Origin: Methanosarcina horonobensis HB-1 = JCM 15518
GTDB lineage: Archaea > Halobacteriota > Methanosarcinia > Methanosarcinales > Methanosarcinaceae
DNA: 64,000 nucleotides
NCBI RefSeq assembly: GCF_000970285.1
Contig: NZ_CP009516.1
Coordinates: 3,017,036-3,081,035 of the forward strand
Direction of reading: 5' to 3'
Shown: positions 48,260-59,395 of the stretch, in pieces
How the letters are laid out: each line of letters begins with the position of its first letter
Position numbering within the stretch: the stretch's first letter is position 1
Translations under genes and position numbers: made by a program
Notes under the pieces: generated by a model
What the model was told of the DNA's origin: nothing
Seen by the model: the letters and a program-made list of their open reading frames with translations, nothing else
Database searches by the model: none

Positions 48260-49231
48260 ATGAAAAAACAAGCAGTAAAATCAGTTACCAGTTTTGCGGT
48301 AGCTCTGATAGTCTTAAGTATCATTTCCTCTGGTGCTTTTGCTTTGGAAAATGGGACAGACGCAAATCAGGCAAACGCAGTAAATGAAAACGGATTTGGA
48401 GAGGTGATGCCAGGGGGCATGAGACATGGGGGGACAGGACCAGACGGGATGCGTGGCATGGGTATTGGCCCTGCTGTTAATATAACCGAAGAAAACTTCA
48501 CCGAGATTCAGACTGAAATGCTCAGTTCAATTACTGAAAAAATTGCTGAACTTCAAAGTAGGTATAACAATGTAAGCGAGGCTTCAACTGCAGAAGAGTT
48601 GCAGGAGGTTTTACTTGCAGAAAGACAGGCAAATGCCAAGGTTGCGGGTCCAGGTAAAATGAACGGATTCCCGGGTGAAATGTGTGGACCGTTCATCTTT
48701 GAAGTTGAGAACTTAACCGAGGAAAACTTTACCGATGTCCAGACTGAGTTGCTTACTTCCCTTCAAAGTATGACCGAAAACCTTGAAGAGATTCAAACCA
48801 GGGTCACAGAAGCAGGTGAAGAAGACAGAGCTGAAGAGCTCAATGAAAAAATTGTCGAGCTTCAAAACCTGTATGCTGAAGTAAGTGAGGCTTCAACTGC
48901 AGCAGAGCTGAAAGGAGTTATGTTCTCTTACCTGCAGACACAGACCATTACATCCCTTGAAAAGAAGATTGAATTCCTGAACTCTAGGACTACAACGGAC
49001 GGAAATGAAACTGACGAGCAGCAGCTGGAGGACAGAATTGAGGAACTCACTGCCTTGATTGCAGATATCGAAGGTGCTGAGTCCCTTACCGAGCTTAGAG
49101 AAATAATGTCCTCTGAAATGAAATTTGGAAACAGACCAATGAGAGAAGGAAAAGGCCCTATGCAGCATGGTGATCGTGAAAACATGCCGTGGCGACCTGA
49201 CAGTCTGCAAAACAATAGCACCGAGGTCTGA
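48260..49231 (+). CDS. Secreted helical (coiled-coil) protein with internal duplication, 323 aa
   Basis: The signal peptide is at 1-29 (SFAVALIVLSIISSGAFA). A Gly/Met-rich segment (PGGMRHGGTGPDGMRGMG) is followed by two copies of a helical unit. The first starts at about 74 (NITEENFTEIQTEMLSSI...) and the second at about 151 (NLTEENFTDVQTELLTSL...), each containing EVSEAST.(A)EL. A third helical segment ends with a Met/Arg-rich tail. No enzyme motifs. Good GGAGGT ribosome binding site. The next gene, 49627-50277, encodes a related smaller secreted helical protein, so both are probably cell-surface components. Confidence 0.8.
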   Translation: MKKQAVKSVTSFAVALIVLSIISSGAFALENGTDANQANAVNENGFGEVMPGGMRHGGTGPDGMRGMGIGPAVNITEENFTEIQTEMLSSITEKIAELQSRYNNVSEASTAEELQEVLLAERQANAKVAGPGKMNGFPGEMCGPFIFEVENLTEENFTDVQTELLTSLQSMTENLEEIQTRVTEAGEEDRAEELNEKIVELQNLYAEVSEASTAAELKGVMFSYLQTQTITSLEKKIEFLNSRTTTDGNETDEQQLEDRIEELTALIADIEGAESLTELREIMSSEMKFGNRPMREGKGPMQHGDRENMPWRPDSLQNNSTEV

Positions 49232-49626: not shown

Positions 49627-50277
49627 ATGAAGCTTTTTAATTTGATTAAAATCTTTAATCTGAAAAAAATTTCCGTTTTTTCTATATTATTGATAATTTT
49701 CAGCATAGTTCCCAACTGCGTACTTGCTGAAGAGGAAAGCACGCAGCCTTCATTACCTGAGGAAGATTTTGATACTATGCAGAGCAGGATGACCGAATCA
49801 GTCGACAGGATGATAGAAGCTCTTGAAAATTCCACAGAAGATCTTGATGCTGATACCCTTGAATCCGCTGAAGAAATGATAAGTGGACTTACATCAATCA
49901 AAGACGAAATTTCCGCAGCTGAAACGGAATCTGACCTCCAGAATATCAGAGAGGAGCTTGATGCTCTGCTTGAAGAAGCTCCTGAAGAATTGAAGAGCAT
50001 TTCCGGATTCGGGATGAGGTCAGGACCTGGACAGGGTCAGAACGGAAGCCAGATACCTCGTCAGGGTCCAGGCAATATGTCTGAAGGACGTCCCGAAATG
50101 CCGGAAGGAGCTAATTTAATGGATGAAAATGCAAGTATGGGGAAACAGGGAACGCGAGGTGAGACCCCTGGTGAGCAGGAAGAAACAGACAATGCAGAAA
50201 GTAACGATAAAGAAACATCCAGCGACACCGGTTTCTTTGGAAAGCTTATTAGCAGTCTGAAATCCCTTTTCAGCTGA
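49627..50277 (+). CDS. Secreted acidic helical protein, 216 aa
   Basis: A signal peptide (to about residue 34, ending NCVLA) precedes a helical acidic region (35-120; DFDTMQSRMTESVDRMIEALENSTEDLD, SIKDEISAAETESDLQNIREELDALLEE), a Gly/Pro/Gln-rich linker, and a C-terminal amphipathic helix (FFGKLISSLKSLFS). The E.DFDTMQ..M..S.....EAL pattern recalls the EENFTEIQTEML units of the upstream gene, so the two are probably related. GAGGT lies 7 nt before the ATG. No enzymatic motifs. Confidence 0.75.
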   Translation: MKLFNLIKIFNLKKISVFSILLIIFSIVPNCVLAEEESTQPSLPEEDFDTMQSRMTESVDRMIEALENSTEDLDADTLESAEEMISGLTSIKDEISAAETESDLQNIREELDALLEEAPEELKSISGFGMRSGPGQGQNGSQIPRQGPGNMSEGRPEMPEGANLMDENASMGKQGTRGETPGEQEETDNAESNDKETSSDTGFFGKLISSLKSLFS

Positions 50278-53357: not shown

Positions 53358-54531
53358 GATAATTTTTAAATTGACAAGTTATAAATTCAGTACATTCAAA
53401 CCTTAAAGAAAGTGATTTTTTTACTAAGTCATAAGTTATAATTCAGGCTTCAATGAACCGCTTTCATAAAATAAATATTAAATTTAAAGCATGAAAATCT
53501 TCAAGTTTCCTTCTTAACAATATCTAAATTATCCCTAAACATTTTTTATTTTTTTAATATATTACATTCGAAGATATATGAACTTTTAGATTGTCAATTT
53601 ATATCTTCTTCTTGGAGTATTAGAAGTACGGACTTTTTTATACTATTATTGCCGCTTCTTACCGAAGAAAACATTGTAAAAGCGTTTTACTGATGTGTAA
53701 TTCTCGTAAGTATCTGTTAATAAAACATCCTCCACACATTGAAAATAACCCGAAATGCTTTTCCAGATAATTATAGGATCTTCAAAATTTTCACATGATT
53801 GCTTTTTTAATTCTTCGGATTAATTCTTCGGATATTCTATATAGTTTGTTTTTGAACTCCTCTGAAAGTTCTGGTGAAAGAATGTAAATCTGTGTTTAGA
53901 GTCTTCTTTTTCCATTGATTCTTCCAAACATTGGAGATGTTGCTATTTTTGGAGCCACTTCGTAAAAAACCGGGCAGTTAAGGGAAAATTTTCCGAATTT
54001 CTGAATTTTCAATATCGTTATGTGAAGAAGTAAAGGCTGGTTTTTGGGTGAAACCTGTGAACTTTGTAAATTGGAATGTTTTACCACCTATAGGAGAAAG
54101 CGGGGTGAAATTGTACCAGCCTTGAAGTAATCTCACAGCCTTGAGGTTGTAAGTAGTTCAAGAATACTATAAATTAATACAAGTATTGGCTTAGTGGACG
54201 TTATATTGTACTACTCTAATTTTTATAAAATTCGTTGAATTTGGATGAGGAAAGTCCATATATTTATAGGTTATCTCCATACCATCAAACAACTAACGGT
54301 TAAGGACTAGTTTCAGATTTAAAACAAGTGTAAAAAAGAGATTGTTCGATAGAATGGACAGAAAACTTATAAGGAGTTAAGTAAAAGGAGTTTATGGAGT
54401 TAGGAAGTAGTTTTCCTCAATCATCCCAAACTCCATAAAGTGTGCCCTATGAGGCAGTGATTATGTTAGCTTTGCTTTTATTTAAGCTTGCCTGATTCTG
54501 CCTCCTTGGTAATAATACTAGGAGTGAAATA
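53358..54531. promoter_or_regulatory. Intergenic region with shared leader A
   Basis: AT-rich. The last about 200 nt (roughly 54230-54450) align with the leaders of the genes at 57191 and 58660 (see the shared-leader finding). Common words include GAATTTGGATGAGGAAAG, AAAACTTATAAGGAGTTA and AAACTCCATAAA. A 63-codon frame at 53896-54087 on the minus strand is not supported. Confidence 0.45.
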
Positions 54532-55082
54532 ATGAAAAATTATAAAAGAACACTGGTAGGAACGTTGTTATTAACCATATTTTTGGTAAATATGGTAGCT
54601 CCGGCGTCAGCATACTCATAAAGTGGATCTAAATGGAACGCAGATTATGTAGTTCCTAAGCTAGACTCTACAGTTCCAAGTTCTTGGTCAAGTATTATAA
54701 AGGCAGCTACAGCTGCATGGAATAATACAGACGCAGCATTCACCTTCAAATGGAAGACAACCGCAACCGACAACAGAATATATTGCCAAAATGACGGATA
54801 TTTAGGACTTGCTGTTCCAACCCGTAGTGGAGGTTATAATATACATTATACAATGTATTTTAACACCGATTATCCTTGGTCAACAGCATCAGCGGAGAAT
54901 CAGGTAAATATGATGTTCAGAGTGTAGCTACTCATGAATTCGGGTATTGATTAACTTTGTATGATTTATACGATTCTACAGATTCTGAGAAAACGATGTA
55001 TAAGTGGACAGGTAGCAACAAAATAAAGAAAAGGACTCTCCATTCAGACGATATAGCAGGTATTAATTATATTTATCCTTAA
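54532..55082 (+). pseudogene. Matrixin-like (M10) metalloprotease pseudogene
   Basis: The ATG at 54532 follows GGAGTGAAATA. The signal peptide MKNYKRTLVGTLLLTIFLVN..APASAYS is followed at once by TAA, then the frame continues as protein (SGSKWNADYVVPKLDSTVPSSW...AAWNNTDAAFTF) to about 54904. A frameshift then moves to SGKYDVQSVATHEFGY-stop(TGA)-LTLYDLYDST, ending DDIAGINYIYP. The expected zinc motif HEFGHxxxL has lost its second His (GY) and has the TGA right after. There are thus two stops and one frameshift. The stops are TAA and TGA, so pyrrolysine (TAG) insertion cannot rescue them. Confidence 0.85.
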
Positions 55083-55094
55083 AAGGTGATGACA

Positions 55095-55735
55095 ATGAAT
55101 AAGAATATAAAATATATGATCATTTTTGTTGGAGTAGTCTCATTGATAACGTTAAGTGCTCTAGCATTGTCAGACTCACAGATGGTATTAAACTTACAAA
55201 TAGTCCCTCACAAGATAACACCAAACTTGCAAATAATGATATGCCTTTATATAGTCAATCCAGTGCATCACTTCCACTATTAGATACTGAAAAATTGAGT
55301 AACCGTTCTGAAGTGATTGTAATAGGTACAGTGAAAGAAATACTTCCAAGTAAATGGACTTCTGTTGATGGTAAAAGGCCTAATGGTATTGATTCATTTA
55401 GCCTAGAGAACTCTATCTACACAGATATCACCATAAGTGTAGACAAATATCTCAAAAACCCATCGTCATCTAAAGAGGTCACAGTGAGACTAGATGGCGG
55501 GACAGTAGGAAATGATACTTTAGAAACTGATTATGAACCAACGTTCAAACCAGGTGAAAAAGTTCTACTTTTTTTGACGGAAGATGTTGTTATAAGTACT
55601 GGTAACATTGAGCCAAAACATCTCAGAGTTACAGGATGTATGCTAGGTAAGTTCACATTGACTGATGATGGGAAAGCCGTAAGACCTGATGAAACTGTCA
55701 GCCAAAATGAGTTGCTGAGTACAATCGAAAAGTAA
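55095..55735 (+). pseudogene. Frameshifted secreted protein gene
   Basis: Start ATG 55095 behind GGTGATGACA. The first frame gives a signal peptide (MNKNIKYMIIFVGVVSLITL SALALSDS) and then meaningless sequence to 55283. The second frame, joined near 55183-55190, continues as DGIKLTNSPSQDNTKL....SEVIVIGTVKEILPSKW to 55735. A single indel separates them. The downstream domain matches the mature part of the next gene (55843-56535): IGTV.EI, a Y..NP.....V.VR..GG segment, a KVLLFL or SVLLML strand, and a C-terminal E..S..E. It begins 13 nt after the protease pseudogene. Confidence 0.75.
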
Positions 55736-55842
55736 TTTAACTATTCAAACATCCTTCGAAGGCTATACAATTTTTAGGATTAATAAATTGAATATGAAAT
55801 TAATCCTTTTATTTTTTACGATGAAGAAACAGGAGAATTTTG

Positions 55843-56535
55843 ATGAAACGATTAAGTTCATTTTCCATATTATTAGTAACATTCGTTCTGCTTTTTTTGA
55901 CTTCAATCATCGCAGCAGCTTCATTTGCTTCAGAAGCTGCCGAAATCCCTTACCAGATAAATAATTCTGATCGCATAGTTATTGGTACAGTAAGCGAGAT
56001 TAATATGTCTCGTGACCATACAATTGCTACAATTAAAGTTAATGAATGGCTCTATAATCCCTTGCCTACAGAAACCATAAAAGTGAGATCAGAAAGGGGA
56101 ACTAATTTATTGACTACAGTCGAAGTTGAGTTCTTCCAGAACGAGTCAGTTCTCTTGATGCTGAATGATGTAGATCTCGATAAACAGCTTTTCCGTGTTG
56201 GAATCGGAGTTCCAGGAAAACACCCTGCTTCAGATAGGGACGCGGTAATCGAGGAGTTAAAAGCTCAGGGCAAGTGGAAAGGAGAAAACCAAACAGAGAA
56301 TAAGACAAATGGAATAGAAACGATAACGGACATAGAAACAACAGACAATCATGAAGAGAATATAACCAAAAATAGTACAGTGGACAATGGAAAAGAAGAG
56401 AATACAGGAACAATAGATAAGCAGGAAGAAAAATCCAACACTACTCAGGAATCAAAAAGTGCTCCTTTTATAAGCTCTTTCTGGTTGCTTGTAATAGTGC
56501 TCGGGACCGTTATGTATGTAAGAAAGATGAAATAA
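55843..56535 (+). CDS. Secreted protein with C-terminal membrane anchor, 230 aa
   Basis: Start ATG 55843, with CAGGAG 8 nt upstream; an in-frame TTG lies directly before it. A signal peptide (1-30) is followed by a beta-rich domain (about 35-140; SDRIVIGTVSEINMSRDHTIATIKVNEWLYNP), an Asn/Thr/Glu-rich low-complexity linker (145-205), one membrane helix (about 209-225) and a basic end (VRKMK). It is the intact relative of the frameshifted gene just upstream. Function is unknown; it is cell-surface attached. Confidence 0.75.
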   Translation: MKRLSSFSILLVTFVLLFLTSIIAAASFASEAAEIPYQINNSDRIVIGTVSEINMSRDHTIATIKVNEWLYNPLPTETIKVRSERGTNLLTTVEVEFFQNESVLLMLNDVDLDKQLFRVGIGVPGKHPASDRDAVIEELKAQGKWKGENQTENKTNGIETITDIETTDNHEENITKNSTVDNGKEENTGTIDKQEEKSNTTQESKSAPFISSFWLLVIVLGTVMYVRKMK

Positions 56536-57190
56536 TAATTAAATCATATAGATTTTGTTGTTTCACCTGTTCACTCAAGCAAGGGTGGGAGAAGCCACCC
56601 ATATATTTCACCAGTCTCATCCCGGCTACGGCTTACACCTCTCGGTTTCCGAGTCCTGAGAAACTTTAACTACTCCTACTTTAACCATCTGTATAATGTA
56701 CACACAAGTGTGCCCTAAATAATTCTAATACTTTCCTTGTGAGTTTACTCCACGAGTTTCTGAAATATCAAACTTTACCTCTGGAGACAGGGTCAAATTA
56801 ATCTTGATTTGAAAAAAACTCTGTTTTTCAAAATATTTCTACGTGAATTTTTGCTCTCTACGTGGTTTGGATCCAAAAATAGCAGTAAATTTGATTCTCT
56901 GATATTTTTGTCAATTTGTGCGAAGTGTCACGCCTAAATTTAATAAATCTCGACAACATATAGACGTATATTCATCTTTTTTCGATAGTTTATCTTTAGG
57001 TATTAACTATTGAATCTGAGTGGAGGCAATATGCTCATATATAAAGTTTCTAACCAGATCATCAAATAATCAAAGATTCTGAAATAATTAATGATCCGAA
57101 AAAGTATGAAAAAGGGATAGTTTGATGATCTGGCTAAAAAGTTTACGGTTTATATAGAATGTATTGATAATAATTTTAGAAGGTGAAAAT
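56536..57190. promoter_or_regulatory. Intergenic region with a structured element and shared leader B
   Basis: GGGTGG-GAGAAG-CCACCC (56583-56600) and CTCGG-TTT-CCGAG (56641-56653) are two hairpins in a GC-richer block, possibly an insertion-element end. The last about 200 nt match the leaders at about 54230-54450 and 58430-58640. GGTGAAAAT just before 57191 is the ribosome binding site. Confidence 0.45.
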
Positions 57191-58225
57191 TTGAGTCAAA
57201 TCAGCAAGGGAATTGCTGTTTTTATCGTTGTTCTAGCTTTTATAATAATCTTGGGACTATTTGTAAGTGCACTAGTTGACCCTAAGACGCAAGTTGATAC
57301 TAAAATGCCGATGAATATGGAAACGCCAGTTCAAGGAAAAGAAATAGGTGGCTTATTTATTGAATTTGAAGATGGAACTAATGAACCTGAAGTTAAAGCC
57401 ATTCTTGAAAACTGCAATATTCCCGTAAATTATAGCATAAATTACAATTCTGACATTCTGCCAAGTAGATGCTACATAATGGTAGATAAAGATAAAATAA
57501 TGGATATAGAGGGATTGGTAGATGAGATAAATTTGACTATCCCTGTAAAAAAAGGAAGTAACTATGTGTTGACGGTAACTGAACGAGCTATCCAAGATAA
57601 AAATTTTCTTGCAATACTGGAAAAAAATAATCTTCAGGTGAAAAAATCCATATACTGTTATGTCCACCTTGAAGATGGACATATGAGTTGGAACCCGGAT
57701 GAAGATATACCCAGAATAAAAGATGAGTTTAGAATGAATGAGAAGGTGTTGACCGTAAATCAAGAAATGAAAGTCAATGATTTATTTGTCGAATTTGAAA
57801 ATGGAACTACTGAATCTGAAGTTAAAGCTATTCTTGAAAACTACAACATGACTATGAACTATAGTATAGATTACAATGTTGACTACTTTGAAGATAAATA
57901 TTACATATCAGTAGACAAAGATAAAATTATGGATGTAAGAAACGAGTTAAATAAAGGGACAAATTGGATTGCCCCTGTATTCCCTGATATTAAAAAAGGA
58001 AATTATTATATAATCACAGTAACTGAACAAGCTATTCAGGATAAAAATTTCCTTGCAATGCTAGAGAAAAATGATCTTCAAGTCAAAAAGTCCGTCTATT
58101 GTGATATTATTCTTAGAGACGAGTCTAAGAACTCGATTTGGGAAATAGATGCGCTCAGAATAAAAAATGAACTTGAAAGAAATGAGAAAATACTGACCAT
58201 AAGTACTGATGGTAGTACCCAATAA
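57191..58225 (+). CDS. UPF0228-family protein with two tandem domains
   Basis: 344 residues from TTG 57191, with GGTGAAAAT directly before it; an upstream ATG (57164) would place nine residues before the ribosome binding site and is less likely. One N-terminal membrane helix (about 8-28) is followed by two homologous units (about 45-185 and 195-335). Both contain (F/V)EFE(D/N)GT.E.EVKAILEN, YYI.VDKDKIMD, I.TVTE.AIQDKNFLA.LEKN.LQVKKS.YC. This is the Methanosarcina UPF0228 family, normally a single unit per protein. Function is unknown; it is extracytoplasmic. Confidence 0.85.
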   Translation: MSQISKGIAVFIVVLAFIIILGLFVSALVDPKTQVDTKMPMNMETPVQGKEIGGLFIEFEDGTNEPEVKAILENCNIPVNYSINYNSDILPSRCYIMVDKDKIMDIEGLVDEINLTIPVKKGSNYVLTVTERAIQDKNFLAILEKNNLQVKKSIYCYVHLEDGHMSWNPDEDIPRIKDEFRMNEKVLTVNQEMKVNDLFVEFENGTTESEVKAILENYNMTMNYSIDYNVDYFEDKYYISVDKDKIMDVRNELNKGTNWIAPVFPDIKKGNYYIITVTEQAIQDKNFLAMLEKNDLQVKKSVYCDIILRDESKNSIWEIDALRIKNELERNEKILTISTDGSTQ

Positions 58226-58659
58226 GAACTTATCCGAAAAGTGTTGAAACCTATTTTTAAAACAACGTCGGATAAGAGGGTAACATGTACTTGAGGTATT
58301 ATCTAGCTTGAATAAATTACTCTCCCTTACTATTTTTCTGTGTTCTTTCTAGATTCTATTGATTTGAAGCTGAGGGGTTGCTATCATACCAGCCTCGATA
58401 ATCTTTTTTATATAATTTTGAATATGTGTGAAGGTGAATGCTCCTATGTATATTTTCTAGCCAAACTCCAACTATTAAAGATTCGGATATTACAGAATCA
58501 AAATGAGTATGGAAAACAGATAGTTTATTAGATGGTCGGAAAACTTGTAAGGAGTTAGGTAAAAAATTTATATAGTTCAGAAGTGCTTTCCAGATAACAC
58601 AAACTCCATAAATTGGTATACTTAATCTGTAGGGTTGGATTTAAAGAGTGGATTAGGTA
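58226..58659. promoter_or_regulatory. Intergenic region with shared leader C
   Basis: Sequence from about 58430 to 58640 aligns with the leaders of 54532 (AAAACTTGTAAGGAGTTAGG and AAACTCCATAAA) and of 57191 (AAAGATTCGGA, GAGTATGGAAAACAGATAGTTT). No gene was recognised. Confidence 0.45.
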
Positions 58660-59395
58660 ATGAATATGAGGACTCGTTACAAAATAATTGTACTATTAAT
58701 AATCATTTCTGCCGCGTTGCTGTCTCTCTGGTGGCAAGACCAGAAGCAGAGGATGTATGATAGGAATCACATTAGCAGTTATGATTACTATATAGAGTTA
58801 ACTACAGACTCGACCCTGAGCAATGTCACTCTTTACCTTCCGCTCCCGGTGATAAACAACAAACACATCATCCGTAGGCACAGATATCGTAGAGCATCAC
58901 TTCAATGACTATGATCATTCATGGAAATATGCCTTGGTTAATACGGAGCACGGATTAATGCTTTCTATAAAAAATAAGAAAATAGAGCCAAAATACACTA
59001 CCCGAAATAAAGGTTCAAAGAAGATTCTGCATCCAAACATGTTTTCCGAAACATTGTTCTCTAATCAGACCATAGACACAATGAACCCGCTGGGCAATGA
59101 AATGGTTCTTATGCCCAAATACAATCTCACACTTAATGTTAACAACAGAGTACCCCATACACAGGCGTCTGAGCAGTTTGATTATGAAAGCAAGATGTAT
59201 GCCTGCTATGATACCTCCTCGAATGCAAACGTCAGCATTTCCATCTACCTGCATGGAACGAATGGATGGTGGATCGGAGGATGGCAGTATAACAGCTATT
59301 GGGAAACCATGGAAATTATGCTGCCCGGATCTCAGGATGGATGGAAAACAGTAAATGGTGAGCTTGTTACAGGAGAAGGGACGTACAAGATATAA
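58660..59395 (+). pseudogene. Frameshifted membrane-anchored protein gene
   Basis: The first frame (58660-58908) gives an N-terminal membrane helix (residues 8-25) and a beta-like segment (YDYYIELTTDSTLSNVTLYLPLPVINN). From about 58857 the protein continues in another frame (NTSSVGTDIVEHHFNDYDHSWKYALVN...) to the stop at 59395. The join lies in AACAACAAACACATC, so a one-base indel in an A/C-rich run is likely. A sequencing error cannot be excluded. The family is not recognised. Confidence 0.7.

Follow-up and report, generated by a model that had tools for sequence, protein, structure and literature searches.

Leaders of secreted-protein genes in Methanosarcina horonobensis resembling a reversed sRNA162 locus: a probable family of control cassettes

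In a window of 64,000 nt (positions 3017036–3081035 of the 5.02-Mb genome of M. horonobensis HB-1), the ~250-nt leaders of genes starting at 54532, 57191 and 58660 (copies A, B and C; positions are those of the window unless a genome is named) resemble each other. From the letters alone it had been suggested that they are a duplicated regulatory leader of three secreted-protein genes, forming a local regulon, or a repeated element bringing its own promoter. Is this likeness real, how far does it extend, and what might such a leader do?

Likeness of the three leaders and extent of the family

The three leaders were aligned locally and compared with 500 dinucleotide shuffles. Scores were 250 for A–B (shuffle maximum 166, z 9.5), 414 for A–C (maximum 172, z 19.1) and 331 for B–C (maximum 217, z 12.9), and the real score of any pair was equalled by 0 of the 500 shuffles. 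The likeness is real: chance similarity was ruled out by this control, in which an explanation by AT-rich background also failed. The motifs that had been quoted for A/C, B/C and A/B were found in the sequence.

Searching the genome with A or B as query revealed many further copies; with A, the E value was 6e-13 for copy C and as good as 3e-33 for others. A model built from nine complete copies and oriented opposite to the downstream gene (R2) matched at least 22 copies in the host genome (E ≤ 0.01). Of the 31 genomes in the genus, 25 had R2 matches (~340 altogether); in the taxonomic family, matches came from 44 genomes out of 112 and from 7 genera out of 14. A second model (R1), made from the inverted repeat on sequence alone, matched ~29 places in the host genome, B among them. 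Within the window only A, B and C were found. Thus, the family and the exclusion of chance support a duplicated regulatory leader of secreted-protein genes, but the regulon is not local: the repeat is genome-wide, with ~20 copies per large genome, and recurs across genus and family. No earlier description of this large leader family was found in the literature searched, which covered few subscription papers.

Parts of the leader and its tie to secreted proteins

As listed in Table 1, leader A contains an inverted repeat, a predicted promoter, two stem-loops (SL2 and SL1), a predicted promoter on the minus strand and a hairpin at the ribosome-binding site (RBS). Transcription of its gene was predicted to start at ~54391–54397. 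On the minus strand, the inverted repeat of A is the counterpart of SL3 of sRNA162, and the distance between the predicted TATA box and the predicted antisense start (54455) is 24 nt. By sequence and alignment the three copies are unequal. A is complete; C is without the minus-strand promoter block; and B, which had no R2 match, consists of the palindrome and promoter part only, SL1, SL2, the minus-strand promoter and the RBS switch being absent.

Table 1. Features of leaders A, B and C and the genes behind them (window positions)
Copy	Feature	Position	Strand	Basis
A	Inverted repeat (left arm ~54277–54292, right arm ~54340–54357)	54277–54357	+	Family alignment; R1 match; comparison with sRNA162 locus
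A	Predicted BRE/TATA of secreted-protein gene, GAAAACTTATAAGG	54361–54374	+	Most conserved block of R1/R2
A	SL2 hairpin, TTTATGGAGTT...AAACTCCATAAA; either strand can form it	54391–54439	+	RNAalifold on 9 copies, 13 pairs; family alignment
A	SL1, TGCCCTATGAGGCA	54443–54456	+	Family alignment; permutation test
A	Predicted sRNA162-like antisense RNA (5′ end ~54455, to far side of inverted repeat)	54270–54455	-	Order of parts; RF02792 strand agreement
A	Predicted minus-strand TATA, CTTAAATA	54479–54486	-	Near-invariant in family alignment; position equals that of sRNA162 promoter
A	RBS hairpin (CTCCT 54502–54506 with AGGAG 54520–54524)	54499–54524	+	Folding; covarying arms in related copies
A	Signal peptide of broken metallopeptidase-like gene	54532–54618	+	Sequence; shared signal-peptide similarity
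B	Inverted repeat (arms 57042–57071 and 57116–57145, 83% complementary)	57042–57145	+	R1 match
B	Predicted TATA, TTTATATAG	57149–57157	+	Sequence; alignment
B	Intact gene for a UPF0228 protein (UPF0228 domain present twice)	57191–58225	+	Pfam PF05727, E 2e-86
C	Inverted repeat, imperfect	58461–58535	+	R1 match
C	TATA, GAAAACTTGTAAGG, and weakened SL2	58539–58552; 58567–58614	+	Alignment; weak R2 match, E 0.0017
C	Gene for membrane-anchored or secreted protein, frameshift-split into two frames	58660–59395	+	ORF list; sequence

Three secreted-protein genes had been proposed behind the leaders; the gene at B is intact, but those at A and C are broken, the former by a stop after ~29 codons and a frameshift further on. 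Since these two genes are broken, the system seems partly decayed in the window. The neighbouring secreted or membrane protein genes at 54532–55082, 55086–55735 and 58660–59395 appear interrupted by stops or frameshifts and look like pseudogenes or assembly errors; ORFs of related copies elsewhere (e.g. G008:3645644 and host genome 1253422) are intact. Part of the UPF0228 gene is duplicated in tandem (57331–58202, ~71–79% identical DNA), which gives its two domains. Two more signal-peptide proteins, rich in Met/Gly/Pro-type stretches, are encoded upstream (48260–49231 and 49627–50277) without the leader.

In a sample of 114 copies from five genomes, 97 were directly followed by an uninterrupted ORF of 100 aa or more. 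A strongly hydrophobic, signal-peptide-like N-terminus was present in 88 of these 97 ORFs, whereas 25 of the 86 ORFs taken as background had one (odds ratio 24; p 1e-18, indicative because the copies are kin), and signal peptides like MIKNKIGIGTLILAILLVGMALIPAVSAQ recurred. The mature proteins fell into 34 clusters by BLASTP and included one representative with Peptidase_C39_2 as well as the UPF0228 type. For copy pairs with unrelated mature proteins, identity was 0.63 in the leader (shuffle 0.50) and 0.60 in codons 1–29 (shuffle 0.52), and stood at shuffle level in codons 34–93 and in the region further upstream. Orientation was constant across copies and distance to the secreted-protein start near-constant. 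The similarity thus reaches through the signal peptide and ends there, and the promoter, the leader and the signal peptide together have the look of a single cassette, one front-end unit.

Comparison with the sRNA162 locus

The closest described counterpart is sRNA162/sRNA171 of M. mazei with the 5′ UTR of MM2442 (RF02792; PMC3510493). The MM2442 mRNA start overlaps the antisense RNA by 65 nt, as mapped by RACE; both start sites, and the binding of sRNA nt 1–65 to the MM2442 UTR, have been measured (PMC3510493). This overlap sets both TATA boxes at usual archaeal distances. When a M. mazei-like sRNA162 locus (L061) was reversed, its inverted repeat, AAAACTTTTAAAGG, SL2, SL1 (TGCCCAAAGGC), minus-strand TATA, TTGCCTCTT, RBS hairpin and signal-peptide protein followed in the same order as in leader A. 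The block GAAAACTTATAAGG of A corresponds to AAAACTTTTAAAGG, which lies upstream of the RACE-mapped MM2442 start. Compared with the M. mazei locus, the order SL1, SL2, single-stranded linker and SL3, opposite to the downstream gene, was found in A; a predicted promoter of its own, with a TATA box ~22–25 nt before the RNA start, was found in A and was lacking in B and C. The leader family resembles this locus in the order of its parts, the 5′-to-5′ overlap of two promoters, the minus-strand SL1–SL2–linker–SL3 layout and the signal-peptide gene downstream. The linker of sRNA162 was reported to pair with the Shine-Dalgarno sequence of MM2441; that of the predicted antisense RNA of A (54363–54390, minus strand) is CUCC-rich and might likewise bind other mRNAs at their Shine-Dalgarno sequences.

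In an Rfam scan, A, B and C all missed the RF02792 gathering score of 78 (B, 28.9 bits), and other leader copies of the host genome stayed below threshold at up to 48.8 bits; the score was reached there only by a separate sRNA162 locus at 3882010 (108.4). Most full-length copies with sub-threshold matches had them antisense to the gene, and the strands of the best RF02792 match and of R2 agreed in 22 of 29 cases. R2 in turn recovered the sRNA162 locus of genome G005 on the correct strand. The complete copies are related to sRNA162 in reverse complement and have a predicted minus-strand promoter.

The family also differs from sRNA162 as described. For that RNA, two copies are reported from M. 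mazei, namely sRNA162 and sRNA171, and one each from M. acetivorans and M. barkeri (PMC3510493); one congener genome gave two strong sRNA162 matches. The leaders, by contrast with these one or two copies per genome, number ~20 per large genome, have diverged below the Rfam cut-off, precede unrelated secreted proteins, share the signal peptide as part of the repeated unit, and carry a proposed RBS switch of which the account of sRNA162 makes no mention. At the host's own sRNA162 locus (L075, 3882010–3882153 of the genome) the match spans only 144 nt; whatever lay between the promoter and the mature portion of the MM2442-like gene seems to have been lost, taking SL1, SL2 and the signal peptide with it.

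RNA folds, competing readings and a proposed switch

The covariation test suggested with the sequence-only reading gave a positive answer for the sense leader, in which both the RBS hairpin and an alternative pairing of SL1 covary. The hairpin sequence TGCCTCC...AGGAG lies downstream of the antisense start and is in the sense RNA only. Among 74 distinct fragments that were folded, 69 had a paired Shine-Dalgarno sequence (mean z −2.25), and the arms covaried among copies (CTCCTAG/CTAGGAG, CTCCTAAG/CTTAGGAG, CTCCTG/CAGGAG and TGCCTCG/CGAGGTA). Own arms paired better than permuted ones (z −4.2, 0/2000), pairing of SL1 with TGCCTC also beat permutation (z −3.5, 1/2000) and a control pairing did no better than permutation (z +0.5), the p values being optimistic because the copies are kin. 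Both folds use TGCCTC and are mutually exclusive; in A the GAGGCA half of SL1 can pair with TGCCTC at 54499–54504. When nt 1–65 of 31 leaders were blocked in folding, to imitate antisense binding, Shine-Dalgarno pairing increased in 15 leaders and decreased in 2, with medians of 0.75 before and 0.98 after; in A it changed only from 0.89 to 0.91. Covariation and wobble use of SL2 did not distinguish the strand: its wobble asymmetry (93:19 overall) was driven by end pairs (core, 24:18), and was discarded as a strand test because base composition explains the end pairs.

Covarying pairings confined to the sense RNA would also suit a leader working without antisense RNA, in which a promoter is followed by a cis-acting RBS switch (set by ligand, temperature or protein), the conserved 40-nt block belongs to the sense RNA or serves as a site for a protein, and antisense RNA is made only at true sRNA162 loci. 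That the block TTAGCTTTGC..TATTTAAGCTTGCCTGATTCTGCCTCC is conserved beyond the needs of a TATA box speaks for it. Its position and spacing, however, match the RACE-mapped promoter and start of sRNA162, and the strand agreement with RF02792 points the same way, so that we consider a sense-only leader rather unlikely. A candidate upstream ORF (MLALRIFKLA*; block ATG/GTG + TTAGCT...) was rejected: its start codon is often missing, and its middle codon varies non-synonymously while wobble positions are fixed, which argues against peptide-coding selection. SL2 loop lengths vary and the reading frame is not kept.

The inverted repeat, directly upstream of the TATA box, was kept in B without the UTR parts and may therefore be bound by a protein. 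As RNA it (SL3) folds weakly in many copies, and RNAalifold yielded no consensus structure for the palindrome. These features would be expected of an operator for a DNA-binding regulator in a purely transcriptional regulon, the UTR likeness being a leftover of front-end duplication. But the UTR parts are better conserved than the repeat and contain covarying pairings, which argues for selection of their own, and operator and UTR roles can coexist; as the sole role, this is improbable. Carriage of the promoter by chance on a MITE-like mobile element would account for the copy number and the inverted repeat, but is very hard to credit, given the fixed orientation and near-constant distance to secreted-protein starts, the similarity entering signal peptide and CDS, and divergent copies without a fixed boundary, where a MITE should be a discrete element, bounded by terminal inverted repeats and found in arbitrary contexts.

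We favour, as the probable explanation, that A (complete) and B and C (eroded) are paralogous control cassettes of secretion genes in Methanosarcina and relatives, with an RBS switch set by antisense RNA. Toward the gene, such a cassette would comprise the inverted repeat, promoter, structured 5′ UTR (SL2, SL1), RBS hairpin and signal peptide. In complete copies, an antisense RNA like sRNA162 would be transcribed from the opposite-strand promoter within the UTR, with its first ~65 nt complementary to the mRNA start and its end at the inverted repeat. In the ON state, GAGGCA of SL1 in a free leader would pair with TGCCTC and expose the Shine-Dalgarno sequence; in the OFF state, the antisense RNA would occupy SL1 and SL2, TGCCTCC would close on AGGAG and translation would stop. 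This sign fits the slight decrease of MM2442 mRNA upon sRNA162 over-expression. Because SL1 and SL2 are alike between copies, antisense RNAs could act across copies and so coordinate the secreted proteins. Four points of this scheme are inferences: that the host genome makes antisense RNA, which state is ON and which OFF, that there is cross-talk, and that a protein binds the inverted repeat. More tentatively, and with some doubt, each genome might contain ~20 secreted-protein mRNAs, every one of them equipped with an RBS switch and with an antisense RNA of the sRNA162 type encoded in cis, and cross-regulating through similar SL1 and SL2, with sRNA162 as one diverged member of this network.

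In plasmid copy-number control and type I toxin-antitoxin systems, complementary stem-loops stand at opposed 5′ ends and antisense binding closes the RBS. The leaders share the opposed 5′ stem-loops and, as proposed here, refolding to a closed RBS; unlike those systems, they form an archaeal chromosomal multi-gene family with secreted proteins, and their antisense action is a prediction. Surface-lipoprotein families of mycoplasmas combine a shared promoter and signal-peptide region with divergent mature proteins. The common 5′ region and signal peptide are alike in both, but the leader family contains RNA elements in addition.

If the favoured reading is true, an archaeal sRNA that is already well studied, together with its cis target, would belong to a multi-copy family connected with secreted proteins, and the leaders would offer many natural replicates for antisense RBS control in Archaea. 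The family suggests a route by which Methanosarcina may coordinate and reshuffle its surface and secreted proteins.
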